The notes below the pieces were generated by a model, which was given only the letters and a program-made list of their open reading frames with translations, made no database searches and was not told the DNA's origin. A program made the position numbers and the translations under genes. DNA of 64,000 nucleotides from Shinella curvata (GTDB lineage Bacteria; Pseudomonadota; Alphaproteobacteria; Rhizobiales; Rhizobiaceae). This document shows positions 46,027 through 64,000 of the stretch, piece after piece. Where the stretch lies: assembly GCF_022899935.1 (NCBI RefSeq), contig NZ_JALJCJ010000008.1, positions 62,001-126,000 of the forward strand. The letters are read 5' to 3'. Numbering within the stretch: the stretch's first letter is position 1; each line of letters opens with the position of its first letter.

Positions 46027-47790
46027 ATGCGTGAACAACGGCATCCTCGACAGATTGCGACGGTGGTTTCCGCTGATGCTGTCGGATTCTCCAAACTCAT
46101 GCATGTCGACGTGGAGGAAGCGCTGCGGCTGTTCGATGAACGCCGCGCCTTGATCGTAGAGGCCGTCGACCGGGCCGGTGGTGACATCTTCGGCGCCGCC
46201 GGCGACAGCATCATGGCGTTGTTCGGCAATCCCATCGTTGCGTTGCGCGTGGTGTTGCAGTTCCAGGCGGCTGTCCTTGAAGCCAATAGCAAAGCGCCGC
46301 GTCATCACGGGATGCCATTTCGTGCGGGTATAAGCTCCGGACCGGTCGTCATCCGCGACGACGGCGTGTTCGGCGACACCGTGAATATTGCCGCGCGCGT
46401 GCAGGAGTTTTCGCCTCATGGCGGCGTCGCCCTCACGGAGACCGTCCATTCGCAACTGCAGCAGCAGTTCGATCTTCCGTTCACGGATCTCGGACCGTTC
46501 CAACTCAAGAACATCGCCGTTCCCGTTCGGGTGTTTATCTCCAGCAGTGGTACCAATGCTGTGCCGGCAATGCTGATGAGAGGCCGGCAATCCCCGACGT
46601 TGACGGCGGAAGTCGATCTGCCGGCGCTTACGGTGCTGCCCTTCCAGAATCTCACCGGTGATCCGCGCCTTGCCTATCTTTGCGACGGCATCGCCGATGA
46701 CATCCTGACGGGGGTGGCGAATACACGCTCTGTTCCGGTCATATCTCGGGATTCGAGTTTTCAGTTTCGGGAACCCTCCCTCACGACGGCGACGATCGGC
46801 CATCTGCTCGGCGCGCGCTATGTGGTAACCGGCACCGTTTCGGGTGATGATCGGCGTTTGAGCCTCAACGCTTCGCTCGCTGACAGTTCGAATTCCCGCG
46901 TCATCTGGGCAGGGCGCTTCGAGCGCGATTTCGAGGAACTGTTGCGGCTCCAGCGGGAGTTGGGCGGCGAGATCGTCTCCCGTCTTGAAAACGAGTTCGA
47001 GCGCGTCGAGCAAATCCGTACGTTCCAGGTGCCGCCGGAGGCGCTTTCGGCGTGGCAAATGCTGCGCCGCGGACGCTGGCACATGCGGCGGCGCTCCTCC
47101 GAGGATACGGCGAAGGCCTATGAGTATTTCCGGCAGGCCTATGACGAGGACGCCAACTCCAGTGCGGCGCTGAACGAACTTGCCTGGTGGCACCTCTGGA
47201 AAGCGTGGCTGAACTTCGCTGATACCGACGAATTGAAGATCGTCGCCGGCTATGCGCGTCGCGCGGCGCTGATGGATAGCCTCGACGCGCGCTCCTACTG
47301 CTACCTCGGTTTCGTCGAAATTCTGGAGGCACGGCCGCATTCGGCGGTCGACCTGTTCCACCAGGCGATCGACATCAACCCGAGCTATTCGCTGGCGCTG
47401 ACCGGTCTCGGCAGTGCCCGTGGCCTTCTGCTCCAGACGCGGGATGCCATCCACAACCTGAAAGAGGCGATCCGACTCAGCCCGTTCGAACCCTATCTCT
47501 TCCACAATCTCGGCGAGCTTGCCGCCGCACACACCATCGACCAGAACTGGCCGGCTGCGATCGAGGCCGCGGACCGCTCGCTCTCGCTCGCTCCCAACTA
47601 TTTTTATGCAAGTTATCTGAGGGCCGGGGCCCTGGCGCGCAGCGAACGGTTTGCCGAGGCTCAGCAGGAGGCAAAGCTCTTCCGTACACGTCACCCGGGA
47701 TTCGAACGCCGCTGGATCGAATGGATTCCTTTCAAGGACCGTTCCGTCAACGAAGGCATGATCGAGAATTTTCAGCTCGCCGGCGAATAA
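46027..47790 (+). CDS. Class III adenylate/guanylate cyclase with TPR domain
   Basis: 587 residues. The cyclase homology domain fills residues ~8-170: metal-binding Asp17 (VVSADAVGFSKLM) and Asp60 (GAAGDSIMALF), and transition-state residues Asn120 and Arg124 (DTVNIAARVQ), so it should be active. A middle domain (LTVLPFQNLTGDPRLAYLCD, then ARYVVTGTVSG) is of the FlgO/TolB-like type common in rhizobial cyclases, and the C-terminal ~250 residues are TPR-like helices. No membrane segment is seen; it is a soluble cAMP or cGMP producer. It sits directly upstream of the P450-DyP gene and near a Crp-family gene, a striking association. Start: ATG at 46027. Confidence 0.9.
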   Translation: MREQRHPRQIATVVSADAVGFSKLMHVDVEEALRLFDERRALIVEAVDRAGGDIFGAAGDSIMALFGNPIVALRVVLQFQAAVLEANSKAPRHHGMPFRAGISSGPVVIRDDGVFGDTVNIAARVQEFSPHGGVALTETVHSQLQQQFDLPFTDLGPFQLKNIAVPVRVFISSSGTNAVPAMLMRGRQSPTLTAEVDLPALTVLPFQNLTGDPRLAYLCDGIADDILTGVANTRSVPVISRDSSFQFREPSLTTATIGHLLGARYVVTGTVSGDDRRLSLNASLADSSNSRVIWAGRFERDFEELLRLQRELGGEIVSRLENEFERVEQIRTFQVPPEALSAWQMLRRGRWHMRRRSSEDTAKAYEYFRQAYDEDANSSAALNELAWWHLWKAWLNFADTDELKIVAGYARRAALMDSLDARSYCYLGFVEILEARPHSAVDLFHQAIDINPSYSLALTGLGSARGLLLQTRDAIHNLKEAIRLSPFEPYLFHNLGELAAAHTIDQNWPAAIEAADRSLSLAPNYFYASYLRAGALARSERFAEAQQEAKLFRTRHPGFERRWIEWIPFKDRSVNEGMIENFQLAGE

Positions 47791-47800
47791 CGCCGTCGAC

Positions 47801-47816
47801 TGTGAGGCATTTCACA
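47801..47816. promoter_or_regulatory. Perfect CRP-type palindrome upstream of the P450-DyP gene
   Basis: TGTGAGGCATTTCACA matches TGTGA-N6-TCACA at all ten consensus positions, 55 bases before the ATG at 47872. It shares TGTGAGG with the second site at 52990. The likely ligand is the Crp-family protein encoded at 52129-52938. Confidence 0.75.
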
Positions 47817-47871
47817 GAGGCAGGGCCGCGTAAGGCCGATTGCTGGAACCGTCAGCGTCGAAGAGGCAACC

Positions 47872-50800
47872 ATGGTTTTCAAGTGTAGCCCCAAATACTT
47901 CCAGCGCCTGAGGGAGGCGCAGGCCGAAACGCCCGTCACTGCCACCGTCCCGCCTTTCGATCTCCAGCGCATGCGTTCCACCGGCATTCTGGCTCGGTTG
48001 ACTGGCTATTTCATCGAGCACCCTGACTGGTGGCTTGCGGTGTTGCGGGCGGTCCTGCCGCGTGCACGTTGTGGGCGGTTCCTGCTTCTGACACGGAGCG
48101 CCGACGTCCGCGAAGTGCTGGAGCGTCAGGCCGATTTCGAGACACCCTACGGCCCGGAGATGATGGAGTTCGCCGGCGGGGCGAATTTCATTCTCGGCAT
48201 GAGCGACGGGGAGGAGTATCGGCGCCTGAAATCGGTCGTGCTCAGCGCTTTCCCGCCGGCAGAGGTGGAGGAGCGCGTGCGTTCCATCGCGGCGCGCCGT
48301 GCACGCGAAATCGTTGATGGCGCCGGCACGTCGTTGAACGCTGCCTGGGATTTGTTTCGCCCGGTTTCCTCAACGATCTGCCGCGACTACTACGGTATTG
48401 TCGTCGATGATGAAGGCGAGTTTGCCGATTGGGCCATCGCGCTGAGCACCGTGTTTTTCGGGGATCCGACGGCCGACAAGGTGGTGCGCGAACTAGCCAT
48501 CGCTGCTTCACGCAACATGCGCCTCGCAATCGACCGCTCGATCGACGCGGTTCTGTCCGCCGAGACCTTGCAGGAGAGGCCAATCGATCGGCTGGTCAGC
48601 GCCATGCAGCAGGGGCGCATCGGCCGACCGGATATCCATGCCATCATGATGGGCATGGTTACAGGCTTCGGGCCGACGACATTGCTCGGTGGCGGCAATT
48701 GCCTCGAGGTCGCGCTGTCACGCAAGGAGATCTTCGACGAGATGGCGGCGGCGGTCGCGGCGGACGATGGCAAAAGGCTCGACCGCGCGATCGTCGAAGC
48801 CATGCGCTTCAAGCCGATCTGGATCAGCCCCTGGCGCTATGCGCGGCATGAGCAGAAGATCGGCGGCGAGCACGGAAAACCCTATACGATCAAGGGCGAC
48901 ACGGTCGTCTGGCCCGCCACGCGTTCGGCGATGTTCGACAGGCGTGCGGTATCCGATCCCTCCGATTTTCGCCCGGACCGGCCGGAGTTGCAGTCTCTTG
49001 TCTTCGGTCATGGCATCCACAAATGCATCGGTGCGCTTCTTGCACGGGTTCAGACGGCCGAATGCCTACGCGTGCTGTTCTCGAAACCCGGTTTTCGTCG
49101 GGCGGCGGGTCGGTGGGGGCGCTTGCAGCGGCTTGGCCCCTATCCGGAAAAGCTGGTGGTCGAGTTCGATCCTGTGGACCAGCAGTCGATGGTCACGGTG
49201 ATCGTTCCGGCAAAGCCCGGCATCGAGGTCGCTGCCATTCGCGACGAGCTGGACCGTCTCGGCAATCCCTGCACCGGCGATGCGCGGCGCGGTCTGGACG
49301 AGACCGGCGTCATCCACTTCGCCAGCATGTCTCTCCTTGAGACGGGTGCGCGCGACGCCGGGACGCCCACCCATCATCTGGTCATGGAGATGAGCGGAGA
49401 TGGAAGCAGCAAAGCGGTCCTGGCGGCCTTCGCAGAAGGGCTTGGGGCGCAACTTCGAAAAATCGTCGAGGACGTTTCCGCCGAGGCCATCGGTGCTGAC
49501 CTTGTAACTTTCATGGAGAAACATTCGCAGGATGTCTCTCCGCATTTCGGCAGCGTCAGCGGTCTGGTCTTCTGCGGCACACCCGGCCACACGGTCGAAC
49601 GCATTCGCCGTGAAGCCGCTCTTGCGCACGACGCGATGCGCATGGTCGAAAAAATCTCGGCAAGACCGGGCGGTGACGCTGCCAAGGTTCTTGAAACCGT
49701 GCGGAAAGGGCTGCGTCGGCGTCCCCGATACGACTGGGCCTTCGCGCCGGCCGCCAGCGCGCTCGCCGCGCCGCCCAAGGGTGTCGGGAGCGCGATCCGC
49801 AAGACGCTTCTGGCAAAACCCGTCACCCTCACGCTGATCGTCGTCTATGCGCTGTGCTGGTACACGACCTACCATCTCGTCTTCGAGATCCCGGATACGT
49901 GGCCGGCCTATCTCCTGCGGCTCGGCACCGCCTTCGTGCTGGCTGGCCTTGGCATCCTGACCACGGTGTCGATTGCGCTCGCGCTTGCTCTCGTCTGGCT
50001 GCGGCGGATCGAAAGAGTGAGCGAGCCCGCGACCGGCTCCATCTTGCCGGTAGACCTGGAGGGGTTGCAGAAGGGGGAGGACCGCGAGTTCCAGAACCAC
50101 ATGACGGCCGTTTCTACTCTCAAGGCCGGGCGTTTTCGGCGACTGCTCCTGCGCCTCGCTTTCTATCTCATCTCGATTTCCGCCACCCATATCTTCCGGC
50201 CGGGGTTCCTCTCCACGATCGGGACCATTCATTTCGCGCGCTGGGTGCGCATTCCCGGCACGGACAGGCTCGTCTTCTTCAGCAACTACGGTGGCAGCTG
50301 GGAGAGCTACCTGGAGGATTTCATCACCAAGGCTTCAGCCGGCCTTACGGGCGTCTGGAGCAATGCTATCGGATTTCCGTCGACGAAATTCCTGTTCTTC
50401 GACGGTGCGCGGGACGGCGATCGCTTCAAGCGCTGGGCCAGGACGCAGCAGGTTCCGACCGGTTTCTGGTACAGCGCCTATCCCCGGCTTTCCACCGCAC
50501 ATATCCGCACCAACGCGCTGATCCGCCAAGGCATTTGTTCGGCACGCCTCAGCGAGGCGCGTGACTGGATAAGCCTGTTCTCTTCTACCGAACGGCAGCC
50601 GCGCACGCGGCTCAATGCGGTGCAGCGTCTGCTTCTGCCCGATCCGGCTCCCTCCGAGAACCTCGAACAGGGCGAGATCCAATCGATCGTCTTCGGCCCG
50701 CTCGGCCGGCTTGGTCACGGCAGGATGCTCGCCTTGCGCGTGCCGGAAGGTCTTGCTGCGACAGCACGCCGGCAATGGCTGACCTTTCTCGTGCAAAAAC

Positions 50801-52125
50801 TATCCTTCGGTGACACGGCTCCCGCGAAAACCGCCATGATGGCTTTCTTCGGTCCGGACGGATTGCGACAGCTCGGGGTCGGTCCCGATGGGGCGGGCGA
50901 GGCCGAGGCGCTTGAGAGTTTTCCGCTTGCCTTTCGGCAGGGCATGGCCAATCCCTACCGCAGCCGGATCCTCGACGATACGGGGTCGAATGACCCCGCG
51001 CGATGGTGCTGGGGTGGTGAGAAGACGGCGGTCGACGTCGTCATCAACTGTTATGCCGACACCCAGGAAAATCTGGACACCATGGTGCAGGAACTGGACA
51101 CAGTTTCCCAGGCGGCCGGCATTCCGATCGTCCATCGCCTTGATCTTTCGATCCTGTCGGCCGAAGGGGGCAGGGGGCGGGATCATTTCGGCTTTGCCGA
51201 CGGCATTTCCCAGCCCGTCATGCGTGGAAGTTGGCAGGATACGGGCAGCCCGGTTCACGCCATGCATCTCGTCAATCCGGGCGAATTCCTGTTCGGTTAC
51301 CGCGACGAACATGGCTTTTATCCGCCTGGTCCCACCGTTCCGGCCCATAGCGACCCGCTCGGTATCCTGCGCGCGATCGAAGTCGACGGCAGCATAACCG
51401 CCGGAAAATCCCGCTGGCATGATTTCGGACGGAACGGCACCTTTGTCGTGATGCGTCAGCTCCAGCAGCATGTCGACCGTTTCGAGAGCTATTGCCGGTT
51501 CGCGGCTGACAACATCAGGACGGTAACCGGGGAGGGCGTGGAGCCCGACTGGGTCGGCGCCCGCATTGTCGGGCGCTGGAAGAACGGTTCCTCGTTGGTC
51601 AAGAGCCCGCACAAACCTGCCGATGGCCCGCCGGATAACCGGTTTACCTTCGGTGCGGAGGATCCGCAGGGGCTTCGCTGCCCGCTCGGCGCCCATGTTC
51701 GGCGCTCCAATCCGCGCGCTTCGCTCAACACGGATCTCGATACCGAACTGCGCATCAACAAGCGTCATCGCATCTTTCGCGTCGGAAGAACCTACGCGAC
51801 AGCGGACGCACAAGGGGTTACGGAAAAAGGGCTGCTCTTCATCTGCATCAATGCGAGCATCGAGCGTCAATACGAATTCATCCAGCAGACCTGGATGGCG
51901 TCTGGCAGCTTTCACGGCCTGCGCGGCGAAAAGGATCCGTTGATCGGTACGCAGAAGGTTACGGCGGGCGGCAGACCGAAAGGCCGCTTTGCCCTGCCCC
52001 GCTGGGAAGGGTCGCTTGCGCTCGAAGGCATGCCGTCCTTCATCACCACACGGGGCGGCGGTTACTTCTTCCTGCCGAGCCGGTCGGCCCTGCGCTACAT
52101 GCTCTATCGTTTGGAGAGGTTGTAG
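47872..52125 (+). CDS. Cytochrome P450 - membrane - DyP-type peroxidase fusion protein
   Basis: 1417 residues. P450 domain (~1-430): I-helix TGFGPTTLLGG (265-270, acid before TT replaced by Pro), ExxR at 309-312 (EAMR), haem Cys385 in FGHGIHKCIGA. Residues ~430-645 resemble the N-terminal extension of large DyP-like proteins (HLVMEMSGDGS). Two hydrophobic segments follow at ~651-672 and ~681-710. A domain with HFARWVRIPGTDRLVFFSNY precedes the DyP part (~940-1417): GxxDG motif FGFADGISQP with Asp1110 and proximal His1275 in CPLGAHVRRSNPR. So two haem centres sit in one membrane-bound chain. No frameshift was seen, and codon use is uniform. Its start follows a CRP-type site. Substrate unknown; fatty-acid or lipid oxidation is a guess. 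Confidence 0.9.
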   Translation: MVFKCSPKYFQRLREAQAETPVTATVPPFDLQRMRSTGILARLTGYFIEHPDWWLAVLRAVLPRARCGRFLLLTRSADVREVLERQADFETPYGPEMMEFAGGANFILGMSDGEEYRRLKSVVLSAFPPAEVEERVRSIAARRAREIVDGAGTSLNAAWDLFRPVSSTICRDYYGIVVDDEGEFADWAIALSTVFFGDPTADKVVRELAIAASRNMRLAIDRSIDAVLSAETLQERPIDRLVSAMQQGRIGRPDIHAIMMGMVTGFGPTTLLGGGNCLEVALSRKEIFDEMAAAVAADDGKRLDRAIVEAMRFKPIWISPWRYARHEQKIGGEHGKPYTIKGDTVVWPATRSAMFDRRAVSDPSDFRPDRPELQSLVFGHGIHKCIGALLARVQTAECLRVLFSKPGFRRAAGRWGRLQRLGPYPEKLVVEFDPVDQQSMVTVIVPAKPGIEVAAIRDELDRLGNPCTGDARRGLDETGVIHFASMSLLETGARDAGTPTHHLVMEMSGDGSSKAVLAAFAEGLGAQLRKIVEDVSAEAIGADLVTFMEKHSQDVSPHFGSVSGLVFCGTPGHTVERIRREAALAHDAMRMVEKISARPGGDAAKVLETVRKGLRRRPRYDWAFAPAASALAAPPKGVGSAIRKTLLAKPVTLTLIVVYALCWYTTYHLVFEIPDTWPAYLLRLGTAFVLAGLGILTTVSIALALALVWLRRIERVSEPATGSILPVDLEGLQKGEDREFQNHMTAVSTLKAGRFRRLLLRLAFYLISISATHIFRPGFLSTIGTIHFARWVRIPGTDRLVFFSNYGGSWESYLEDFITKASAGLTGVWSNAIGFPSTKFLFFDGARDGDRFKRWARTQQVPTGFWYSAYPRLSTAHIRTNALIRQGICSARLSEARDWISLFSSTERQPRTRLNAVQRLLLPDPAPSENLEQGEIQSIVFGPLGRLGHGRMLALRVPEGLAATARRQWLTFLVQKLSFGDTAPAKTAMMAFFGPDGLRQLGVGPDGAGEAEALESFPLAFRQGMANPYRSRILDDTGSNDPARWCWGGEKTAVDVVINCYADTQENLDTMVQELDTVSQAAGIPIVHRLDLSILSAEGGRGRDHFGFADGISQPVMRGSWQDTGSPVHAMHLVNPGEFLFGYRDEHGFYPPGPTVPAHSDPLGILRAIEVDGSITAGKSRWHDFGRNGTFVVMRQLQQHVDRFESYCRFAADNIRTVTGEGVEPDWVGARIVGRWKNGSSLVKSPHKPADGPPDNRFTFGAEDPQGLRCPLGAHVRRSNPRASLNTDLDTELRINKRHRIFRVGRTYATADAQGVTEKGLLFICINASIERQYEFIQQTWMASGSFHGLRGEKDPLIGTQKVTAGGRPKGRFALPRWEGSLALEGMPSFITTRGGGYFFLPSRSALRYMLYRLERL

Positions 52126-52128
52126 CGG

Positions 52129-52938
52129 TTACGCGTCATTCCCGTCCGTTACCAGACGGCGAAGGCGTGCGCGGTTGGCAACCTTGATATGGCCGCGCCT
52201 GATGTCGATGAGCGTGCGACTGCGCCAGCCGTTCAGCAGCTTGTTGACGGATTCGCGCGTCGCACCGAGGAATTCTGCAATCTCACTCTGCGAGATCGCG
52301 ATCCAGCCGGTCGGGTCGGCAAGCAGCTTGTCCAGCAGCAGCAAACGCTTGGCGAGCCGGGCCTCGACACCGAGAAAGGCCTGGTCGCCGAGGGATTCAC
52401 TCACCCAGCGGAACCGGTCGCAAAGCAGCCGCAGCATCGAACGGGCAAGAAGCGGACTTTCCTCTATACGCTTGAGAAGCTGTGCGCGCTCCAGTGAAAC
52501 GATCTGGCAGTCGGTCCGGCATATTGCGGTCGCCGTGCGCAGGTTGCCGTCAAGCGCACCAACCTCACCGATAATCGTTGGGGCCGTCTGCATGTTGGCG
52601 ACGAGTTTCTGGCCATCGATCGAGTATATGGATATCTCGACGGAGCCCTCGATCAATCCGAACACCCGGTCCGACCTGTCCTCCTGCAGGAAGAGATGCC
52701 GCCCGGCCGGCACCTTGTCGGCTAGGCAGTTGTCGAACAGAAGGTCGAACAGGTCGCGACCAGAAGAGCTCTGATCGTGGCTTTCCGCCGCTTGCGCGGA
52801 TTGATCCTGCTTGGTTTTGCTGGCACGTCGCGAGGCTGGCCGGCGGGAGTCCAGCCAGACAATCTTGTCGGCGACGAAACTTTTCTTGTCCATGACAAGC
52901 GCTGCTCTTTTGGGACGCGGCTTCACTTTGCCCGACAT
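52129..52938 (-). CDS. Crp/Fnr-family regulator
   Basis: 269 residues with a basic, low-complexity N-terminal extension of ~60 residues before the cNMP-binding domain (~60-175). The phosphate-binding segment retains IIGEVGAL (Gly124-Glu125) and LRTATA (Arg134-Thr135), equivalent to the cAMP-contacting Glu72, Arg82 and Ser83 of E. coli Crp. The recognition helix ATRESVNKLL keeps Arg228 and Glu229 with Lys233 for Arg185, fitting TGTGA sites. FNR-type iron-sulfur cysteines are absent. It lies convergent with the P450-DyP gene and divergent from the beta-rich operon, and both promoters contain TGTGA-N6-TCACA. Start at 52938; an alternative ATG is at 52893. Confidence 0.9.
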   Translation of the reverse strand: MSGKVKPRPKRAALVMDKKSFVADKIVWLDSRRPASRRASKTKQDQSAQAAESHDQSSSGRDLFDLLFDNCLADKVPAGRHLFLQEDRSDRVFGLIEGSVEISIYSIDGQKLVANMQTAPTIIGEVGALDGNLRTATAICRTDCQIVSLERAQLLKRIEESPLLARSMLRLLCDRFRWVSESLGDQAFLGVEARLAKRLLLLDKLLADPTGWIAISQSEIAEFLGATRESVNKLLNGWRSRTLIDIRRGHIKVANRARLRRLVTDGNDA

Positions 52939-52989
52939 TCAACCCGTCAGACAAGCGAATATCGCGCTTTCCTGATTTTATCCGACCTG

Positions 52990-53005
52990 TGTGAGGTAGC
53001 TCACA
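52990..53005. promoter_or_regulatory. Perfect CRP-type palindrome between crp and the beta-rich operon
   Basis: TGTGAGGTAGCTCACA matches TGTGA-N6-TCACA exactly, 51 bases from the crp start and 59 bases from the start at 53065. It can serve autoregulation and activation of the operon. Confidence 0.78.
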
Positions 53006-53064
53006 GTCCGCCTCTCCCGTCGCAGGCATGCTGGCTCATCGAATGACGGTGGGAGACCAGATCG

Positions 53065-55488: not shown

Positions 55489-55495
55489 GGTGATC

Positions 55496-57298
55496 ATGTT
55501 CAGCAACCTTCCCGATCTGGCGCCGATTCGTCCGGGCGAAGGCTTTCCCGATCACGAGGAGCTGCGCGTGCTGCATGTCCTGCCGGGCGGCCTCACCGCC
55601 GCTCGCGAGGCCGATGGCACGCCACGCTTTGCGCTGAGCCGATTCCGCGATACGGCGATCGAGGCGGCTGGCGGCATGATGCATCTCGAGCTCGATTTCG
55701 CCACGCTCGACCCCGCCCTCCTCGGGGCGGCTGCCGTCGATGGCTGGGTACTGCGCCTTGTCGGATTTACAGCCGCGCGGGCACGCCTGCGCAGTCATGT
55801 GCCCGGCTTTCCGGATGTCAACCTCCAGGACGCCTGGAGGCCGGCCCGCCTCTCCAGCCGAACCTTGGCGGTCGAAAAACACCTGTTCGATGTGCGCACG
55901 GTGCAGATGCTCGATGCGCTGCTTTCCTCGGACGCCGGCGACATCGAGGTCGAGGTGGAGGCGCGCTACGAAGGACTGGAGCAGCCAATCCCTGTGCTCG
56001 CTGGCGCCGACCTCGATGCGCTCTTCGCCCTCCTGCGACCACAGGCGGAGGGGCTCACGTTCGACCAGATCGAGGCAATGGTCCTTTCTGCGCCGACCGG
56101 CGCGGGATCGCTCTTTCGTCTCGAACGGCTGGAAGGGGAGATTGTCACGGATGGACCGGCCCTTCGCCATCTTCTGGCGCTGGCGATCCGTGATGACGTT
56201 TTCACCGCTCAGTCGAACGTCGATGCCTGGGCTGAAGTTCGCTACCACTGGCGCGATGACGTGCCCGCCGACGGGCGCCGGGCTTGGGATCTGTCCGTCT
56301 ATCGCCGCAGTGGTCGATCGTGGCATGCGCGCTGGTCGTTGCGCAATTTCCTCAGCGGTCTGGACCCGTCCGAGCGCGCGGAACTGTTCCCAGCCTTTTC
56401 GGGAATTGCACCGTTCGCCGTTGTCCCGGTCACGCTTATCGCTCCGGTGGGGCTCGACACCCGCTTCGTGCGGCACGTGCAGGTCGATGTACTCGCGAGC
56501 GGACCAGGCGGCGTCCCGCAGCAGAGCAGTTTTCTCTATCCGCCAACGCCGGCTTTCCATCGTTTTCCCGTCACCTATCCGGCGTTGACGGGCGATCTCA
56601 ACCTCTCCGCCCATGTCGCAGCAACGCTTGCGCCCCTGGAAGGCGCGGTGCCCTCGCTGCCACGGCCTCTTGGCCGGCGGTCGCTTGACGTTGGGAGTGC
56701 CGTTGCCTGGACGGCGGAGGATGCCGGGTTCGAGACGCTGGCCATCTCCGCGATGCCCGGCCTTTTCGAACGCGCCTCGCGCATTGAGGTGAGCGTCGCC
56801 GTTGAAAGCGAACTGCTCTGCCTGGCGGTCCTGATGCGCGAGGCGCCCGAGGCGGGGCTTGCCTGGCCAGCGCAGCCGGTAAAGCCGACGCTCCGCGTCG
56901 TGGCGCTGCGCGACGCCGTGGATGGTCCGGCCGTGACCATCCATTCAGGTGTCGTCGAGGGTGCGCTGCTCCTGCGCCCGGACATGCTGGACGTGCTGGA
57001 GCCGGATCTCGTTCTGGTTTCGCTCGATCCGGTGACGGCCGGCAATGCCGCCTATGTCGCGGTGACGCTTCGTGACCCGACCGGACGACAGAGATCGTTC
57101 TCGCTGGAGCTGGCGGAGACGGTCGAGTGGCGCTGCTGGGCGGCCTCGCGCTTCGATCGCCTGGCCTACGAATATCGGTTGCAACACATTCCGCGCATGC
57201 CGGATGGCACCACGCGGCCGCTTGTCACAGGCGATTGGCTGCCAGCGGGGGAGACGGTCCTGCAGATCGTTCTGCCACCGGTGGAGGACGCGCCATGA
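55496..57298 (+). CDS. Beta-rich protein of unknown function (operon gene 2)
   Basis: 600 residues, no signal peptide. It begins LRVLHVLPGGLTAAREADGT then PRFALSRFRDTAIEAAGGMM and HLELDFATLDPALL; this 'property-rich strand, D-x-x-G-x-P-x-F, GG-x-x-L-x-x-D' layout is the same as at the N-termini of operon genes 3, 4 and 5, though more divergent. The C-terminal part has FxLELAETVEWRCWAASRFD-like strands and ends near YRLQHIPRMPDGTTRPLV. Start: ATG at 55496, preceded by GAGGTG, seven bases after the previous stop. The longer upstream frame is rejected. Likely a domain relative of the following proteins. Confidence 0.72.
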   Translation: MFSNLPDLAPIRPGEGFPDHEELRVLHVLPGGLTAAREADGTPRFALSRFRDTAIEAAGGMMHLELDFATLDPALLGAAAVDGWVLRLVGFTAARARLRSHVPGFPDVNLQDAWRPARLSSRTLAVEKHLFDVRTVQMLDALLSSDAGDIEVEVEARYEGLEQPIPVLAGADLDALFALLRPQAEGLTFDQIEAMVLSAPTGAGSLFRLERLEGEIVTDGPALRHLLALAIRDDVFTAQSNVDAWAEVRYHWRDDVPADGRRAWDLSVYRRSGRSWHARWSLRNFLSGLDPSERAELFPAFSGIAPFAVVPVTLIAPVGLDTRFVRHVQVDVLASGPGGVPQQSSFLYPPTPAFHRFPVTYPALTGDLNLSAHVAATLAPLEGAVPSLPRPLGRRSLDVGSAVAWTAEDAGFETLAISAMPGLFERASRIEVSVAVESELLCLAVLMREAPEAGLAWPAQPVKPTLRVVALRDAVDGPAVTIHSGVVEGALLLRPDMLDVLEPDLVLVSLDPVTAGNAAYVAVTLRDPTGRQRSFSLELAETVEWRCWAASRFDRLAYEYRLQHIPRMPDGTTRPLVTGDWLPAGETVLQIVLPPVEDAP

Positions 57299-57332
57299 CC
57301 CTGCCCGAAGCTTCATTGGAAGGAATGACGCC

Positions 57333-59921
57333 ATGCTGCTGATCCCGTCCATCGACCGTGTTGGCAAGGTTACCGTCTATGCCGACGACACGCTTTTCTA
57401 CCGCTTTTATCCTGTCGCCGATGCGCCGCGCCTGCGCATGGACGATACCGGGGATCCGGTGTTTCTTCTGCTCTCCTACGCCCTATCCGACGAGGATCGC
57501 GCCGCCAATCCGGGGTTGCCATCCGGTGGCGGCTACCTGTCCTTCGACACGAGCTTCGAGCCGACGCCTGCGGAACTGTCGGCGGTGCGCGAGGCACTGG
57601 CTCCACGCGTTGCAGCCGAATGGAACCGCCTGCGCAATGGAACGCCGCAGGAGCAGGCACAGCCGGGCGTCGCCGGCACCAGCGAGCCGCCGGCCATCGA
57701 ACTCGCATCGCCCACCTGGACGGAGGGCGTGGTGTCGATGGATGCCCCGACGGATGCCCAGTTGATCGAAGCGCGCGTGGCCGAATCCGCGCCGTCTCTG
57801 CTCGCCGGCAACATTGCCAGCTTCTCGATGGACCTGACCCCGGCGGGCGCCGCCTTCATGGAGCAGACGCTGCTCGCCGACGACGAGGCGGCGGACGAAA
57901 CGCCGATTCAGATCGCCTATGACCTGCGCTTCTGGGCGCGCCTGCCGCCAGCCCGTATTCACCTCGAGGTGAATGCCGAACGCATGTACAAATATATTGA
58001 GGAACAGTTCCGCGGGCGCCATGTCGAAGTCTGCACCGGCTACGACTATTCGAACGCGGATGTAGATACGGAATCGCTAACGCTCTCCGGCGCCGTCACG
58101 GTGCAGATCGACACCGGGTCTGGATCGCTGCCGGAAGAAGTCATCGCTGAACTGCGTGCCTACGCCTTCGACCTGGTGAAGCAGCTTGTCCAGCACAGCT
58201 TTTTCAGCCTTGAGGGCGGCGGCGAGGCCGCGCCTGCGCCGCAGCGCGGGGCGGACGGTCGGCCGATCATCATGCCGCTGCGCCATCGCATGCTCGGTCG
58301 TCATAAACTGGTGCGCAAGCAGATCGACGAGCAGACGATGTCAATCAAGCTCGATCTGGAGCAGAGCAGCGTCGTGCCGTGGACGATCTTTCCGCGCGGG
58401 ACCTTGCAAACCCTGCTGCCGGGCGAACTGGCGGCGAGGCGTCGGCATGTGCGCAAGCTGCGTCTCAACGACCCCTTTTTCGCGACGATCGAGACCGCCA
58501 TCGAGGTCTTCGCCGAATTTGCCCTGATCGATCATGTGGAGGTCGAGCTTGCCTACGAGGCAACCGACGAACGGGGAAACCCGCATGCCACCGGCACCGT
58601 ATTGAGTTTTCGCGACGGAACCCCGCAGGTTTGGCGCACGGCTGTCGTCGGCGGCATCAGGGAGTACCGCTGGCGCCAGCGCTCGGTGCTGACCGGCGGG
58701 CGTGTTGGTGCATTCAGCGAATGGACCGTGACCCATGCCCCCCGCGTGCCGATCTCCATCGAGGCGCCCGGCATGCTGGAAGTCTCGGTCGTTTCGGGTG
58801 CCATCGACTACGAGACGCTCGTGCGCAGCGTGCAGGTCACGCTTGCCTATGAGGATATCGCTTCCGGTGTGCCACGTGAGGAGACGGTTGCGATCCTAGA
58901 CGCGCAGAAGCCCTCAATGACGTACATGCGGCAGATCGATGCAACACAGACCCACCCCGTCCTGGCGAAGGTGCGTTTCGACCTTCAATCCGGCGATGTC
59001 ATCGAAAATGCGGAATGGGTGCCGGTGCAGGGGCGGCAGCTCGTCGTCAACCAGCCCAGTGAGGCGGTGTTGGAAGTGAGCCTTCTGCCCTCGGGCAATG
59101 GCTGGGCCGATGTCGTCGCGGTCCTGGTGGATCTGGCCTATGAAGACCACACCAACGACGTTTCGATCCGCGACACCTTCACCCTGAGGTCGCTGGATGC
59201 GTTCGTCACGTGGAGCGTCTATCTGCGGGACCGGGCGCGACGTGGCTACCGCTATCGCTGGACCGCGTCCTTTGCCAATGGCGATCTCGTCGAGCAGGGT
59301 TGGCAGGACAATCCCGGTGATCCGGTGCTACCGGTCCGCATCCAGCGCTCGGGCATCACGGTGACCGTCGTGGCGGACGCCTTGGAGTTCTCCGATTGCC
59401 CGCTGACGGAAGTGACCATCGTGCATGACGTCCCGGGCGGTGCGAGCGAGACCCTGGTCTTCCGCAACAAGGCCCCCCAGACGTGGCATGTCGAGGCGCC
59501 GACAGGAAGCCCGGCCGCTTTCCGCTACCGCGTCACGCATTTTCCCGTCGGGCGCGATCCCGTCCAGCTTGCCGAGCGACGGGAGAGCGACACCATGATC
59601 GTGCTCCCGCCCTATCTTGCCGTCAGCGCCGGCGAGTTGAAGGTGCAGATCCTGGCGACGCTCGTGGATTTTACTGTGACCCCGATCGTCGCGGTCGATC
59701 TTAAATACCAGGACCCGGATAACGACCTCGACCTCAGCCAGTCGTTGACCCTGACGATCGACGAGCAGGCGGCGTCCTGGATCACGCCGACACGCGATTT
59801 CCGCGTCACCGGTTTCCGCAGCCGCATCACCTACTTTCTCGCCGATGGCACCGAGAAGCAGGGCGAATGGGTCGCCAACACGATCCCCCGGATCGTGGTG
59901 CCCGCCTACCGCCCCGCCTGA
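57333..59921 (+). CDS. Beta-repeat protein of unknown function (operon gene 3)
   Basis: 862 residues. N-terminal conserved domain: VTVYADDTLFYRFYPV, DDTGDPVFLLLSYALSDEDR, GGGYLSFDTSF. A second block has ASPTWTEGVVSM, LAGNIASFSMDLTPAGAAFM and PIQIAYDLRFWARLPP. From about residue 385 five ~85-95-residue units follow, each with a hydrophobic lead, '-V-x-L-x-Y-E-D-', a W-containing strand and a YRYRxT-type ending (for example VQVTLAYEDIASGVPREETV and VLVDLAYEDHTNDVSIRDTF). It is a clear paralogue of gene 4. Start: ATG at 57333 after GGAAGGA. No signal peptide, cysteine-poor. Role unknown; the repeats suggest an elongated binding or scaffold protein. Confidence 0.78.
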   Translation: MLLIPSIDRVGKVTVYADDTLFYRFYPVADAPRLRMDDTGDPVFLLLSYALSDEDRAANPGLPSGGGYLSFDTSFEPTPAELSAVREALAPRVAAEWNRLRNGTPQEQAQPGVAGTSEPPAIELASPTWTEGVVSMDAPTDAQLIEARVAESAPSLLAGNIASFSMDLTPAGAAFMEQTLLADDEAADETPIQIAYDLRFWARLPPARIHLEVNAERMYKYIEEQFRGRHVEVCTGYDYSNADVDTESLTLSGAVTVQIDTGSGSLPEEVIAELRAYAFDLVKQLVQHSFFSLEGGGEAAPAPQRGADGRPIIMPLRHRMLGRHKLVRKQIDEQTMSIKLDLEQSSVVPWTIFPRGTLQTLLPGELAARRRHVRKLRLNDPFFATIETAIEVFAEFALIDHVEVELAYEATDERGNPHATGTVLSFRDGTPQVWRTAVVGGIREYRWRQRSVLTGGRVGAFSEWTVTHAPRVPISIEAPGMLEVSVVSGAIDYETLVRSVQVTLAYEDIASGVPREETVAILDAQKPSMTYMRQIDATQTHPVLAKVRFDLQSGDVIENAEWVPVQGRQLVVNQPSEAVLEVSLLPSGNGWADVVAVLVDLAYEDHTNDVSIRDTFTLRSLDAFVTWSVYLRDRARRGYRYRWTASFANGDLVEQGWQDNPGDPVLPVRIQRSGITVTVVADALEFSDCPLTEVTIVHDVPGGASETLVFRNKAPQTWHVEAPTGSPAAFRYRVTHFPVGRDPVQLAERRESDTMIVLPPYLAVSAGELKVQILATLVDFTVTPIVAVDLKYQDPDNDLDLSQSLTLTIDEQAASWITPTRDFRVTGFRSRITYFLADGTEKQGEWVANTIPRIVVPAYRPA

Positions 59922-59954
59922 GTTTGAACCCAGCCCCACCCGGAGGACACGCGC

Positions 59955-62648
59955 ATGCTAAAACTTCCCGAATGGCGCACCTTCCAGGAGCAGCGCGTCA
60001 CCGTCTATCAGGACGACACGCTCTTCTGGAAATTCTATCTGGTCCCCAACTATGTGACGATCCGCAAGGATGACAGCGGCAAGCCGGTGTTTTTGCTGAT
60101 TGCCTATTCGTTCGGCGACCAGGACCGAGAAGAGAACCCCGACCTGCCGCGCGGCGGCGGTTACATGGTTCTCGACGTCGAGATGCGCGTCGATCCCGAT
60201 GACGAAGCGGTCATCAAGGAGCAGCTCCAGCGTGATGTCGACCAGATGTGGCACGAGCTGAAGCGCCTTGCCGAACAGGCCGGCCGGAACGTGCAGAGCT
60301 ACCGCATTACCAGCCATCACAATCTGCCGCGGCTCAGCACCGAGGTTTCGCTCGGTGTCGACGACGTGCTTCTGGGTCTCGGACCGGATCTGCCCGAAGC
60401 CCCTCCCGGCGACCAGCCGCCGAAGGTGGTTCTTGCGAGCCCGACCTGGGTGGAGGGCACGTTCAAGGTCTCCGCGCCGCAAAGCGAGCACCTGGTTTCC
60501 AACCGGCTTGCCGAGGGAAAGACCTCGCTGATCGGCACGAATGTCGCCTCCGCCAATCTCGATCTTACCCCGGCGGGCGCGGCCTTCATGGTGGAGACGC
60601 TGGTCGATCCCAACGGCACGGGCGTTACCGATCTGACGCCGATCCAGATCACCTATAATCTCAAATTCGTGGCCCGCGTTCCCCCGGTCAGCGTCGTCGC
60701 GTCCGCCAATACGCGCAGCGTCTACGCCGCCGTGAAGGGCATTTTCCACGACTACGAAGGCGGCGGCTGCGACGAGGACACGGTTTCCCACTCCGAGCAG
60801 AACATGGAGATGGCCGTATCCTCCGGCCTGATCGATATGAAGATCGATGTGGGCTGGCCAGACGTGCCCGACGATCTCGTCAACCAGATGCGCTCCGACG
60901 CAATGAAGAGCGTGCAGGATGCCCTGACCAAGCGGCTTGCCGACAAGAAGCCAGCCCCCGTGCCCGCGGCCGACGATCCGACGCGCGAGTTCGTCAACCG
61001 CGAAAGCGACATCTTCTACCTGAAGACCGAGATGAGCATGGACTTCACCACGTTCACGCATCAGGAGACGATGGCGAGCACCCGCAAGCAGGACATCAAT
61101 CCGCAGGGCACGCTTCAGGCCTTTCTGCACGGCCTCTCGCCGCAGGAAATCCGCCAGTTCGTTCGCAAGATCGACCTGGACGACCCCTTCTTCCAGACGC
61201 TGGACCTGAAAGCCTGGGTCTTCGGCATCGACTGGGACAAGGACCCCATCGATTTCGTTGAAGTCGAGATCGGCTATAGCGGCACGGACGAAAACGGCCA
61301 GCAGGTCAACAAGGCGACCACCTTCATCTTCACGAAGGACAAGAAGGAGTTCGCCTGGGATCCGAGCCTGATCGGGGCGAAGCGCGAATACCGCTGCCGG
61401 TGGCGTATTGGCTATCGAGGCCACGCGGAGAGCGAATGGAGCGCCTGGGAGACCAAGGCGAGCAACCGCCTCAGCCTCAGCGTGCAGCCGCCGGGCAAGG
61501 TCGATCTCTCGCTGAAGGTCGGCGATATCAGCTTCGACACGGTGACCAAAAGCGTGCAGGTCGAGATCGAGTACGAGGACGCCTCCCGCGGCGTTCCGCG
61601 CATCGGCACGATGGTCAAGCTCGACGCGGGAACGGCGGAGCAGCGCTTCACGAACTGGATCTTCAAGCCGCGCAGCAAGCCGGTGCGCTATCGCCCGACC
61701 TTCTTCCTGAAAAACGGCCAGACGGTCGTCGGCGAATGGCAGGAAACGTCGTCCGATACCGTGCTGATCAACGAGCCGCGTTCGGAAAACCGCCTCGACG
61801 TTCTTCTGGTGCCGAGTGGCCGGAGCTGGGCGCAGGTCGTGCAGTCGGTGGTGACCATGCGCTATGCCGACATCCGCAACGGCGTCATGGCCGAGGCCTT
61901 CTACCAGTTGAAGTCGTTGGAAGAATTCAAGCAGTTTGCCGTCTATGTCGCAAACGGCGGTCCGCGCAAATTCGAATACCAGGTCGTCACGACATTCCAG
62001 GACGGCTCCAGCGAGGAAAGCGGCTGGCTGAACGGCGATGGAGACAGCACGGTGCAGATCGCCGTGAAGGAGCCGCCGGAACTGGTGGTCGATGTCCTGC
62101 CGATGATGCTCGATTTCGCCTTTACGCCGGTGGTCGAGGTCGGGTTGCGCTACGAGGATCCGGCGAACGGCATCCACGAGAGCCAGACCTTCGCGCTGAC
62201 CTCCAAGGACAATCAGACCTGGTCGGTGCCACTCAGCAATCCCGCCAAGACGGATTTCTCGGTCCGCTACACATACAATTGCGCCGACGGGCAGGTGGTC
62301 GAACGGCCGGAAGAAATGGCGCCGGATCCGAAGGTGACGGTGCCGAAACTCCTGGTGCCCGAGGTCTTCGCCTCTTTCGTGCCACGGATGATCGACTTTG
62401 CAGCCACGCCCGTGGTCGAAGTCAATATCGGCTATTCCGATCCGTCTCGCGGGCAGGACGTGCAGGAGACCTTTACCTTCATCGACACGACGCCGCAGAC
62501 GTTCCGCGTCCAGGTGGATGCGGCCGCGCCGAAAACCTATCAGGTGGAGATCGTCTACTATCTCGCGGATGGGCAGATCGTCACGCGGCCGGCCGTGACG
62601 TCGAACAAGACGCAGATCACCATCCCGAAATACGTCCATGCGGCGTGA
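59955..62648 (+). CDS. Beta-repeat protein of unknown function (operon gene 4)
   Basis: 897 residues, paralogous to operon gene 3 along its whole length: VTVYQDDTLFWKFYLV, DDSGKPVFLLIAYSFGDQDR, GGGYMVLDVEM, ASPTWVEGTFKV, NVASANLDLTPAGAAFM, PIQITYNLKFVARVPP. About five repeats fill the C-terminal half; the last two are closest to each other (LDFAFTPVVEVGLRYEDPA and IDFAATPVVEVNIGYSDPS). Each unit likely forms one beta-sandwich. No signal peptide. It starts 33 bases after gene 3 with GGAGGA upstream and ends nine bases before gene 5. Confidence 0.8.
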   Translation: MLKLPEWRTFQEQRVTVYQDDTLFWKFYLVPNYVTIRKDDSGKPVFLLIAYSFGDQDREENPDLPRGGGYMVLDVEMRVDPDDEAVIKEQLQRDVDQMWHELKRLAEQAGRNVQSYRITSHHNLPRLSTEVSLGVDDVLLGLGPDLPEAPPGDQPPKVVLASPTWVEGTFKVSAPQSEHLVSNRLAEGKTSLIGTNVASANLDLTPAGAAFMVETLVDPNGTGVTDLTPIQITYNLKFVARVPPVSVVASANTRSVYAAVKGIFHDYEGGGCDEDTVSHSEQNMEMAVSSGLIDMKIDVGWPDVPDDLVNQMRSDAMKSVQDALTKRLADKKPAPVPAADDPTREFVNRESDIFYLKTEMSMDFTTFTHQETMASTRKQDINPQGTLQAFLHGLSPQEIRQFVRKIDLDDPFFQTLDLKAWVFGIDWDKDPIDFVEVEIGYSGTDENGQQVNKATTFIFTKDKKEFAWDPSLIGAKREYRCRWRIGYRGHAESEWSAWETKASNRLSLSVQPPGKVDLSLKVGDISFDTVTKSVQVEIEYEDASRGVPRIGTMVKLDAGTAEQRFTNWIFKPRSKPVRYRPTFFLKNGQTVVGEWQETSSDTVLINEPRSENRLDVLLVPSGRSWAQVVQSVVTMRYADIRNGVMAEAFYQLKSLEEFKQFAVYVANGGPRKFEYQVVTTFQDGSSEESGWLNGDGDSTVQIAVKEPPELVVDVLPMMLDFAFTPVVEVGLRYEDPANGIHESQTFALTSKDNQTWSVPLSNPAKTDFSVRYTYNCADGQVVERPEEMAPDPKVTVPKLLVPEVFASFVPRMIDFAATPVVEVNIGYSDPSRGQDVQETFTFIDTTPQTFRVQVDAAAPKTYQVEIVYYLADGQIVTRPAVTSNKTQITIPKYVHAA

Positions 62649-62657
62649 GGTGCGGCC

Positions 62658-64000
62658 ATGTTGTACCTCAATCCACCGTTTTTCGAGTACGAGGGCGTCG
62701 TCGTCGGGCGCGACTACAGCGATCCGAAGCAATTCTGGTACTATCCGAACAGGCCCAGGATCGGTACGGACGAACAGGGCCGCCCGGCCGTCCGCCTCAT
62801 CGTCTACAAGGAAATCCTGGAGAATCTCGAAGCCACCGACGACGAGGTGGCCGCCGGGTTCCTGCTCTTCGACACAGTGCTCGACTGGGAACCGGAGCGG
62901 TTGAAGCGCGTGGCGGCGCGCATCAAGGACGAGATGGATCTCGACGACCTGCCGCGGCTCGCACCGTTGCAGTATCGCTCGGGCAGGGTGCGCATGACCT
63001 TTCTCGACCGCAAGAGCCCCCTGCCGGGAGACCCGCCGCCGGGCGAAGACGTTCCGGATAGCGAATGGGTAAGCTTTCTGGAGAGTTCGGGCGTGCCTTC
63101 GCTCTATGCCGACAACCGGGCGATCTTCAGCGTGGAACTCACGGCCAAAGGGACGCGCTTTATCCTCGGCTCCTTCGACGGCTTCATTCCCGCCGGTGTC
63201 GTCTATGAATTGAACTATGTGGCGATGCAGCGCGCCTACAATGTCAAGGTCGAGGCCGACTGGAATCTCGTCTACGAATACATCCGCGACTACGAACAGG
63301 ACCGCTTCTTCTTCTGGAATGACGAGATCGAGAAGATCGTCGAGAAGCTGGAAGAAGAGCGGATCATCAAGTTCACCGCGTCGATCGAGGGCGTGGGCGA
63401 CGAGGGCATGGAGGGTGAATATGCCGAGGTGCGCAAGCAACTGACGCAGTTCATCTACGAAAAATTCTTCGAGCCCAAGATCAACCCGAAGGCACTGCTC
63501 GACCGCGATACGCCCGGTTCCATTGTCGCACTTCTTTCGGGCGTGCGTGACACTGGCCTGCCGATGCAGTTCGGAGGATCGAAGCGGGAGCTGAATGTCG
63601 AGCAGCGCCGCAGTTTCGAGGCCGACGTTTCCACCTACCGCGCTGTCGAGCGCATGATTGCACCGCAAGGCCATCTCAGCATGTTCTGGGAGGACTTCAA
63701 TCTTAGCCGCGATCAGGTGATCACCGTTGTCGACGAAAAGGACGATGTGTGGAGGATCTCGGAACTCGGCGTCACCGCTGTTGCCAATTTCGACGACAAT
63801 GCGGTCGCCCATATCGTCGTCGATATCGTCTATGGCGGTCTCACCGACGGCCGGCCGGCACAGGACGCGCGGACCTTCAGCCTTGTGCTGGACAAGGAGC
63901 ATCGAAAGGGCACTGTCCGCAACTGGTACGATCCAGACGTGGGCGCACGGTTTCACTATCGGTTCACGGTAGCCTTCGGGCCGGGTGCGGTGGTCGGCGA
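62658..64000 (+). CDS. Paralogous beta-rich protein (operon gene 5), cut by the window edge
   Basis: Open from the ATG at 62658 (GAGGTG upstream) to base 64000, 447 codons and still open. It begins MLYLNPPFFEYEGVVVGRDY, then FWYYPNRPRIGTDEQGRPAV, RLIVYKE and AAGFLLFDTVLDWEPERLK, the same N-terminal layout as genes 3 and 4. The second block DNRAIFSVELTAKGTRFI and IPAGVVYELNYVAMQ corresponds to the LTPAGAAFM/YDLRFWAR block. From about residue 365 a repeat-like unit starts (VANFDDNAVAHIVVDIVYGG), suggesting that C-terminal repeats continue beyond the window. A helical insert (VYEYIRDYEQDRFFFWNDEI) distinguishes it. Confidence 0.75.
   Translation, partial: MLYLNPPFFEYEGVVVGRDYSDPKQFWYYPNRPRIGTDEQGRPAVRLIVYKEILENLEATDDEVAAGFLLFDTVLDWEPERLKRVAARIKDEMDLDDLPRLAPLQYRSGRVRMTFLDRKSPLPGDPPPGEDVPDSEWVSFLESSGVPSLYADNRAIFSVELTAKGTRFILGSFDGFIPAGVVYELNYVAMQRAYNVKVEADWNLVYEYIRDYEQDRFFFWNDEIEKIVEKLEEERIIKFTASIEGVGDEGMEGEYAEVRKQLTQFIYEKFFEPKINPKALLDRDTPGSIVALLSGVRDTGLPMQFGGSKRELNVEQRRSFEADVSTYRAVERMIAPQGHLSMFWEDFNLSRDQVITVVDEKDDVWRISELGVTAVANFDDNAVAHIVVDIVYGGLTDGRPAQDARTFSLVLDKEHRKGTVRNWYDPDVGARFHYRFTVAFGPGAVVG

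Follow-up and report, generated by a model that had tools for sequence, protein, structure and literature searches.

The DNA analyzed here, a stretch of 64,000 nucleotides from Shinella curvata (assembly GCF_022899935.1, contig NZ_JALJCJ010000008.1, positions 62,001 to 126,000), is referred to below as the window. At its end lie genes for a class III nucleotide cyclase protein (CYC), a cytochrome P450 fused to a DyP-type peroxidase (P450-DyP), a CRP-type regulator (CRP) and an operon of large beta-rich proteins (A-H), which together probably encode a regulatory circuit. An earlier note on this DNA had named all four elements, and all were found where it had placed them. The following features were assigned:

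46027..47790, + strand: CYC, class III nucleotide cyclase protein (PF00211 E=1.6e-10 and TPR by Pfam; alignment to 3mr7)
47801..47816, no strand: CRP palindrome TGTGAGGCATTTCACA in the gap between CYC and P450-DyP (pattern search)
47872..52125, + strand: P450-DyP fusion, 1417 aa (Pfam p450, NCBIfam Dyp_perox_fam, PDB matches)
52129..52938, - strand: CRP-type regulator (Pfam cNMP_binding and HTH_Crp_2), divergent from the operon and convergent with P450-DyP
52990..53005, no strand: CRP palindrome TGTGAGGTAGCTCACA in the gap between CRP and gene A (pattern search)
53065..55488, + strand: gene A, 807 aa, no known family, the first gene of the cassette in relatives too
55496..57298, + strand: gene B, 600 aa, related to gene H in its N-terminal part (hhalign)
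57333..59921, + strand: gene C, 862 aa, C/D/E/H paralogue family
59955..62648, + strand: gene D, 897 aa, C/D/E/H paralogue family
62658..64934, + strand: gene E, 758 aa, C/D/E/H paralogue family (the window ends at 64000; same contig read onward)
about 64931-65845 (window numbering, beyond the window): gene F (same contig read onward)
about 65833-67599 (window numbering, beyond the window): gene G (same contig read onward)
about 67612-70098 (window numbering, beyond the window): gene H (same contig read onward)

The operon, to which at least five genes had been ascribed, was thus extended to eight by reading the contig past the window, and its end lies 6.1 kb beyond it. To judge from the gene spacing, A-H are presumably transcribed as one unit.

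A pattern search revealed two perfect TGTGA-N6-TCACA sequences in the window, at 47801-47816 and 52990-53005. The earlier note had described them as confined to the two relevant promoters, which is correct for the window; one further perfect site exists elsewhere in the genome. The three perfect sites in the 6,072,409 bases compare with none for the reversed control pattern, and the probability that two of three fall into these two gaps (81 and 126 bp) by chance is about 1e-9. Matches with up to two mismatches were no commoner in the window than expected by chance (9 found, 17.4 expected). Consequently, the perfect sites alone carry weight. The third perfect site of the genome (G000:C11:252974-252989; L091:6974) coincides with the 5' end of a small gene, which we take to be clpS-like and to precede clpA.

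The complete set of 11 genes was found in the same order in three other genomes, namely on a plasmid of Pararhizobium qamdonense, in Rhizobium sp. Root483D2 and in Mesorhizobium sp. Root552. Seven of the eight sites at the two promoters of these four genomes are perfect and one carries a single mismatch. A perfect site stands behind the CYC stop codon in all four genomes, and the site before gene A is likewise kept in all four (three perfect, one with one mismatch). In Root552 the P450-DyP site is located just after the CYC stop codon, yet its distance to the P450-DyP start codon identified is about 277 bp. Rhizobium sp. Root483D2 (G297) contains two perfect sites genome-wide, both inside the unit.

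The distribution of P450-DyP was surveyed at three taxonomic levels. Matches were obtained in 38 of 297 genomes of the family (E ≤ 1e-100), in 22 of 297 of the order (E ≤ 1e-30, partial matches counted) and in 3 of 385 of the class (E ≤ 1e-60), the latter full-length solely in the S. curvata genome itself. From 34 of the 38 family genomes 35 loci were taken. G1042, a contig fragment, and G1267, with the DyP part alone, were excluded, and the remaining two are the S. curvata genome and G105. With L077-L080 the collection amounted to 39 loci. Five of these, at 32-40% identity, were set aside: four with a partner lacking the cyclase domain, and L133, in which the P450-DyP match begins at residue 438 and a partner gene is absent. 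The core comparison therefore comprised 34 loci with P450-DyP identities of 43-81%.

In these loci the order cyclase > P450-DyP < CRP prevails, with the three genes side by side in 28. CYC lies upstream of P450-DyP in 32 of the 34. CRP is directly convergent with P450-DyP in 30 and stands one gene further away in L124 and L125; the contig of L123 ends 1.1 kb after P450-DyP, and CRP was not seen there. The gene between P450-DyP and CRP in L124 (L124:8421-10010) encodes a PAS-MCP chemoreceptor, and a similar-looking gene occupies this place in L125. A CRP site with no more than one mismatch was detected within 250 bp upstream of P450-DyP in 32 of the 34 loci (perfect in 13) and within 130 bp in 29, at a median distance of 70 bp (48-110) from the site centre to the approximate start. 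Outside the P450-DyP-upstream and second sites, the 39 stretches, 693,179 bp in total, contain 17 further sites of this quality. The statement that the elements are rarely seen together thus holds for the 11-gene unit but not for the three-gene core, whose genes are direct neighbours in 26 of the 297 genomes of the family (S. curvata, G105 and 24 fetched loci).

CYC consists of a cyclase domain (about residues 9-161), a middle part that we take to be TolB-like, and a TPR C-terminal half. Two metal-binding Asp residues and the transition-state Asn/Arg pair are invariant in an alignment of 36 orthologues. The alignment to 3mr7 showed that in S. curvata Gly takes the place of both the substrate-specifying Lys and its partner Asp. 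The adenine-specifying Lys is Gly in 36 of 36 orthologues, and the partner position is never Asp (Ser in 15, Arg in 8, Gly in 7, Leu in 3, Cys in 2 and Asn in 1). CYC thus has the metal Asp and Asn/Arg residues of a class III cyclase but not the Lys and Asp of the canonical adenylate type, and of the complete catalytic set postulated before, the metal and Asn/Arg pairs stand and the two adenine-specifying residues do not. The genome encodes two other class III cyclases, both of which keep the Lys. A double mutant of the cyclase Ma1120 (Lys to Glu, Asp to Gly) is described as retaining part of its ATP activity and gaining GTP activity (PMC4215837, consulted in part). Since this mutant is active, CYC may well be catalytically active too.

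The best PDB matches of CRP were 3h3u, 3mzh, 3d0s and 3i54, which we take to be structures of Mycobacterium tuberculosis CRP (Rv3676). Its residues are numbered as in E. coli CRP, by alignment to the E. coli sequence. Among 34 orthologues the residues for phosphate and ribose are conserved, with Glu72 and Arg82 in all 34 and Thr (33) or Ser (1) at Ser83. The position of Thr127 holds Val in 27, Ile in 6 and Leu in 1, and never Thr; that of Ser128 holds Ser in 32 and Thr and Asn in 1 each. Of the two adenine contacts that mark the CRP subfamily, Ser128 alone is kept. The claim of intact residues for the cyclic nucleotide (cNMP) is therefore right for Glu, Arg, Ser/Thr and Ser128 and wrong for Thr127. 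The recognition helix RESVNK is nearly invariant (R34, E34, S34, V31 I3, N34, K33 R1). This Arg-Glu helix and the palindromes kept at the targets bear out the TGTGA-reading residues noted before, and binding is predicted. Because CYC is without the adenine-specifying residues and CRP has Val, Ile or Leu for Thr127, cyclic AMP (cAMP) is unproven as the local messenger, contrary to what had been supposed. Cyclic UMP (cUMP) was also considered and is not favoured, because Ser128 is retained in 32 of 34 regulators at the position where PycTIR has its uracil-reading Asn143 (PMC11224242, consulted in part).

In P450-DyP an N-terminal P450 part is followed by a hydrophobic stretch near residue 655 and a C-terminal DyP peroxidase part. 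Pfam p450 matched with E=1.3e-8 and NCBIfam Dyp_perox_fam with E=6.5e-30, above its cut-off; the Pfam Dyp_perox_C match fell slightly below the cut-off (18.8 of 20 bits), and PDB matches to both DyP and P450 proteins were obtained. All 11 aligned fusions contain the ExxR and haem-ligand Cys motifs of cytochromes P450 as well as the GxxDG Asp and proximal His of DyP peroxidases. Cytochromes P450 that activate O2 carry an acid-alcohol pair in the I-helix. Here the I-helix reads GF[GAIV]PT in 11 of 11 fusions, so that the acid is replaced by Pro and Thr is retained. We take P450-DyP for a two-haem oxidase that is probably membrane-anchored and probably driven by peroxide.

A different arrangement was observed in seven distant loci (Novosphingobium L017, Sulfitobacter L018, L082, L131, L132, L134 and L135). 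In these the gene before P450-DyP retains the C-terminal half of CYC and has a SARP-like N-terminus instead of the cyclase domain. The label SARP comes from NCBI for L017 and from sequence resemblance for the others, of which L134 is cut at its end. A regulator of the SARP type would carry an N-terminal winged-helix/BTAD domain; in the partners of L017, L018 and L082 Pfam called TPR alone (E ≤ 0.001). Neither a CRP gene in the stretch examined nor a site within 250 bp upstream was found in any of the seven loci, as compared with 29 of 34 core loci (Fisher p = 4e-5; the genomes are related). Cyclase domain, CRP gene and site are thus present or absent together at the deepest split in P450-DyP. 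In L081 and L083 P450 and DyP are encoded by separate genes that follow a gene for a longer cyclase protein, and there is no upstream site; Pfam called AAA and TPR in this protein of L081, and L083 was read from its sequence. Our interpretation is a single sensor whose output can be exchanged and would act either by direct DNA binding or through a cyclase and CRP.

What lies behind the second site is exchangeable as well. A perfect second site beyond CRP was found in 9 of the 34 other core loci. In L078 and L079 a subtilase protein follows, with an HExxH-like segment by reading of the sequence; in L077 and L080 it is an RTX protein, and in L129 and L130 a GCV_T aminomethyltransferase (by Pfam in L129, by sequence likeness in L130). 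In L128 a gene resembling GntR precedes a CoA-ligase-type gene, and in L127 a CoA-ligase-like gene lies further behind the second site. Proteases and RTX proteins are thus recurrent cargo in relatives (L077-L080); just upstream of the S. curvata unit, at 42005-45187 of the window (- strand), a subtilase-like protein with RTX-type repeats was read from the sequence alone.

No A-H gene was found in the examined stretches of 33 of the 34 other core loci. The remaining locus, L101 (G1224), has a core 80-86% identical to that of S. curvata, an intact second site and pieces of gene A, and B-H were not found in 10 kb; here the cargo appears to have been lost and the core kept. Conversely, A-H relatives in kept order, with gaps, were found in Anaerolineae, Phormidesmis, Hydrogenophaga, Pontixanthobacter and a metagenome-assembled genome (MAG) of Mariprofundaceae. 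Full-length P450-DyP is absent from these non-rhizobial genomes: among 11 genomes or records searched, four matched, two of them full-length and both rhizobial. No P450-DyP match was obtained in the MAG from Mesorhizobium that contains L006, a locus on a contig that begins shortly before H. Gene H occurred in 1 of 297 genomes of the order (S. curvata) and 2 of 388 of the phylum (S. curvata and one other). At E ≤ 0.001, 126 relatives of H were counted in the 7999 scored candidates, and for many of them the identity is about 50% along the whole protein. The co-occurrence that had been set in advance as the test of the unit was therefore found in four rhizobial genomes, where core, A-H and site stand together. 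A-H and core each also occur separately, so the assumption that the operon belongs integrally to the unit is right in part only, and the core is separable from its cargo.

Several cassettes in other genomes have features of their own. The Phormidesmis locus (L058:15853-19998, G301:C28:48301-50757) looks damaged, with A and D partial, B and C undetected and two in-frame stops in H. Genes of the cassette, with locus tags that are consecutive or close together, are present in Starkeya sp. ORNL1 (A, G and H) and in Amycolatopsis sp. cg5 (G and H). In the Mariprofundaceae MAG (L014:12573-16746) a NAL1-like protein and an amidase are encoded among the genes downstream of H. A TIR-WD40 protein is divergent from the cassette in an Anaerolineae MAG (L056:8520-11363), and on a Paracoccus plasmid (L016:4950-29865) a divergent A-H-like cassette lies beside genes for a tyrosinase, a PLD-like protein, a trypsin-like protease, a STAND-type ATPase and an EAD1 protein. 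None of these conflict-type neighbours (the TIR-WD40, EAD1 and trypsin-like proteins and the STAND-type ATPase) was found next to a rhizobial unit, and for this reason we do not build on them.

C, D, E and H are paralogues, whereas A, F and G represent separate families. The relation of B to H has an hhalign probability of 97.0; for A a relation to C/D/E/H was not established (best probability 51.6, to H). None of the eight proteins gave a Pfam match above cut-off, nor did the seven scanned with NCBIfam (F left out). No PDB sequence matched the profile of G at E ≤ 1 or that of H significantly (best E=0.052). Among 59 relatives of G the Gln, Cys, His and Asn of the papain-like (clan CA) set are present in 54, 53, 59 and 59, respectively, and G looks papain-like. 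In two homologues of G (L011:6453-9980, L012:6493-9969) an N-terminal S8 subtilase domain is fused.

Taken together, these results point to what is probably a locally wired cyclic-nucleotide/CRP circuit that drives a double-haem oxidase and an exchangeable cargo. The TPR/TolB-like half of CYC would sense a cue and switch the cyclase domain on. The product, either cAMP or a related cyclic nucleotide, would bind the CRP encoded next door, as its cNMP-binding domain suggests. CRP would then occupy the palindromes upstream of the two targets, where sites and conservation were observed directly, and would switch on the P450-DyP oxidase and the cargo that happens to follow the second site, in this case A-H. 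These may constitute a fixed-order hetero-oligomeric assembly of paralogous FN3/Ig-repeat scaffolds (C, D, E and H, with B sharing a domain) carrying G as a papain-like protease or transferase; a scaffold-plus-protease assembly is a tentative proposal that we hold with considerable doubt. The wiring from CYC via CRP to P450-DyP and cargo is well supported as a prediction from gene order and sites. The self-contained signalling unit of the earlier note is strongly supported by comparison, through its conserved core order, its conserved CRP sites, its two of three perfect sites genome-wide and the joint presence or absence of cyclase domain, CRP gene and site at the deepest split; its A-H operon is upheld in part, and its cAMP is unproven. 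As doubtful as the scaffold-plus-protease assembly is a fuller, family-wide scheme, in which a SARP-like output was exchanged for a cyclase and a dedicated CRP, a non-cAMP nucleotide or relaxed base choice is used, the circuit is insulated from the Clr pool by the matched changes of Lys to Gly and of Thr127 to Val, Ile or Leu, and oxidase and exchangeable cargo, including the cross-phyla A-H protease-scaffold, are driven.

A number of observations weigh against these proposals. The uniform lack of Lys and partner Asp in CYC is one. L114 and L118 have CRP and site yet no cyclase in the stretch examined, and L106 has cyclase and site and no CRP in about 10.8 kb examined. A site upstream of P450-DyP is missing in L119 and L128, and the sole upstream site of L127, L129 and L130 is imperfect and 218-247 bp away. 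Because the split between cyclase and SARP partners matches the deepest division of P450-DyP (43-81% versus 32-40% identity), the association of cyclase, CRP and site is confounded by ancestry. A LuxR-like gene intervenes between CRP and second site in L080, and the arrangement in L077 is similar; in both loci the site might belong to that gene instead. The sites are not private everywhere: G299, G265 and G248 have five perfect sites each (one in the unit), G105 five (two) and G229 seven (two), and G069, G136 and G209, from the genus of G265, G248, G105 and G229 and without P450-DyP, have 1-2 each. The reversed control pattern occurred 0-3 times per genome in these eight and G297. The seven core-bearing genomes (G000, G105, G229, G248, G265, G297 and G299) contain 21 extra perfect sites; near the nine examined, from six genomes, no relative of the unit's genes was found. 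Some extra sites lie near genes that we take to resemble dnaE, alanine dehydrogenase and clpS/clpA. As to A-H, the Cys is missing in 6 of 59 relatives of G, Foldseek gave no match for G at E ≤ 0.001, and the structure model of H is moderate (pLDDT 73, pTM 0.41); its N-terminal half is too uncertain for naming a fold, and the VIA rows mainly cover 429-820.

The strongest rival explanation is a cAMP-responsive operon rather than a private circuit, with CRP fed by the general cAMP pool and CYC otherwise active or non-catalytic. The missing Lys and Asp of CYC, the two loci with CRP and site but no CYC, and the Lys of both other class III cyclases of the genome fit this explanation. However, CYC directly precedes P450-DyP in 32 of 34 loci, the metal Asp and Asn/Arg residues, invariant in 36 of 36, would be needless in a dead domain, and the Ma1120 double mutant is active, although there Lys became Glu and not Gly (PMC4215837, in the part consulted). 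We regard a supply from the general pool as unlikely. Less probable still is that CRP controls P450-DyP and itself alone and that A-H is a mere neighbour. The 25 of 34 core loci without a second perfect site and the occurrence of A-H elsewhere without full-length P450-DyP would agree with this, but the palindrome before gene A is conserved in 4 of 4 genomes and intact beside the A remnants of L101, and perfect sites stand before other genes in eight loci. A phage or prophage origin of A-H is highly improbable and was rejected. In its favour are the fold matches obtained for the H model in BFVD, for the most part FN3/Ig-like proteins of phages (E as low as 3e-11), and weak PHROG matches of F (E=0.0045) and G (to a major head protein, E=0.0027). 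However, the fold matches are generic ones of repeated beta-sandwiches that match by fold alone, with TM at most 0.30 among the 50 rows listed, PHROGs gave nothing at E ≤ 0.1 for A, B, D, E and H (C left out), IMG/VR holds no H relative, and the order C-H is common to six bacterial lineages.

How bacteria separate several cyclic-nucleotide circuits within a single cytoplasm is an unsettled question. In this unit the genes for cyclase and CRP move as a set with their target sites, and the two nucleotide pockets show correlated changes. The S. curvata genome has one other perfect site and Root483D2 none, and insulation is directly testable. P450-DyP, a double-haem enzyme not characterised before, offers a clear handle on its regulation. 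A-H add unnamed protein families that the family libraries used do not recognise, with identities of about 50% between phyla for H and G. Judged by title and start of abstract, none of the best 10 of 212 and the best 12 of 153 open-licence PMC papers describes the unit.

Among known systems, fungal PpoA is another peroxidase/dioxygenase-P450 fusion, with the same likeness to and differences from P450-DyP as oomycete CYP5619. In CYP5619 (PMC5919972, consulted in part) peroxidase and P450 likewise share one chain, whereas the protein described here has a DyP-type peroxidase and an N-terminal P450, is bacterial and has CRP sites upstream.

The regulator resembles M. tuberculosis CRP Rv3676 by its best PDB matches, with a recognition helix RESVNK instead of RETVNK, and differs from it by Val, Ile or Leu at the Thr127 position. 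The M. tuberculosis CRP site is reported to be very similar to that of E. coli (PMC4005916, consulted in part). For Rv3676, 191 target sites were given by chromatin immunoprecipitation (PMC4117774, consulted in part), as compared with three perfect sites in the present genome.

With Pycsar the unit shares a class III cyclase without adenine-specifying residues adjoining a cNMP-binding protein. In contrast to Pycsar, with its TIR or membrane effectors, this protein is a Crp-type regulator with a helix-turn-helix domain and not a TIR protein, and Asn occurs at the Ser128 position in 1 of 34. CYC matched PycC with E=0.0035 (14.8 bits), and CRP matched just the cyclic-nucleotide-binding domain of PycTIR-type models (E down to 3.9e-8). 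Apart from these, the PADLOC scan (P450-DyP left out) gave a weak match of H to GajB (E=0.022) and nothing else, and a known defence system was rejected.

Another close parallel is the CyaC-Clr-CycR system of Sinorhizobium meliloti. The consensus of Clr, a cluster G CRP, is HGTYHCNNNNGRWACA (PMC10127613, consulted in part). Neither window site fits it, and in the corresponding target test GTNNCNNNNGNNAC both have G where the core needs C. In S. meliloti a membrane-bound cyclase is partnered by Clr and the TetR-like CycR (PMC10463352, consulted in part), whereas here CRP is encoded in the unit and the sites are different. Both systems would nevertheless lead, in a rhizobium, from a specific cyclase via a cyclic nucleotide and a CRP-type regulator to a subset of genes.

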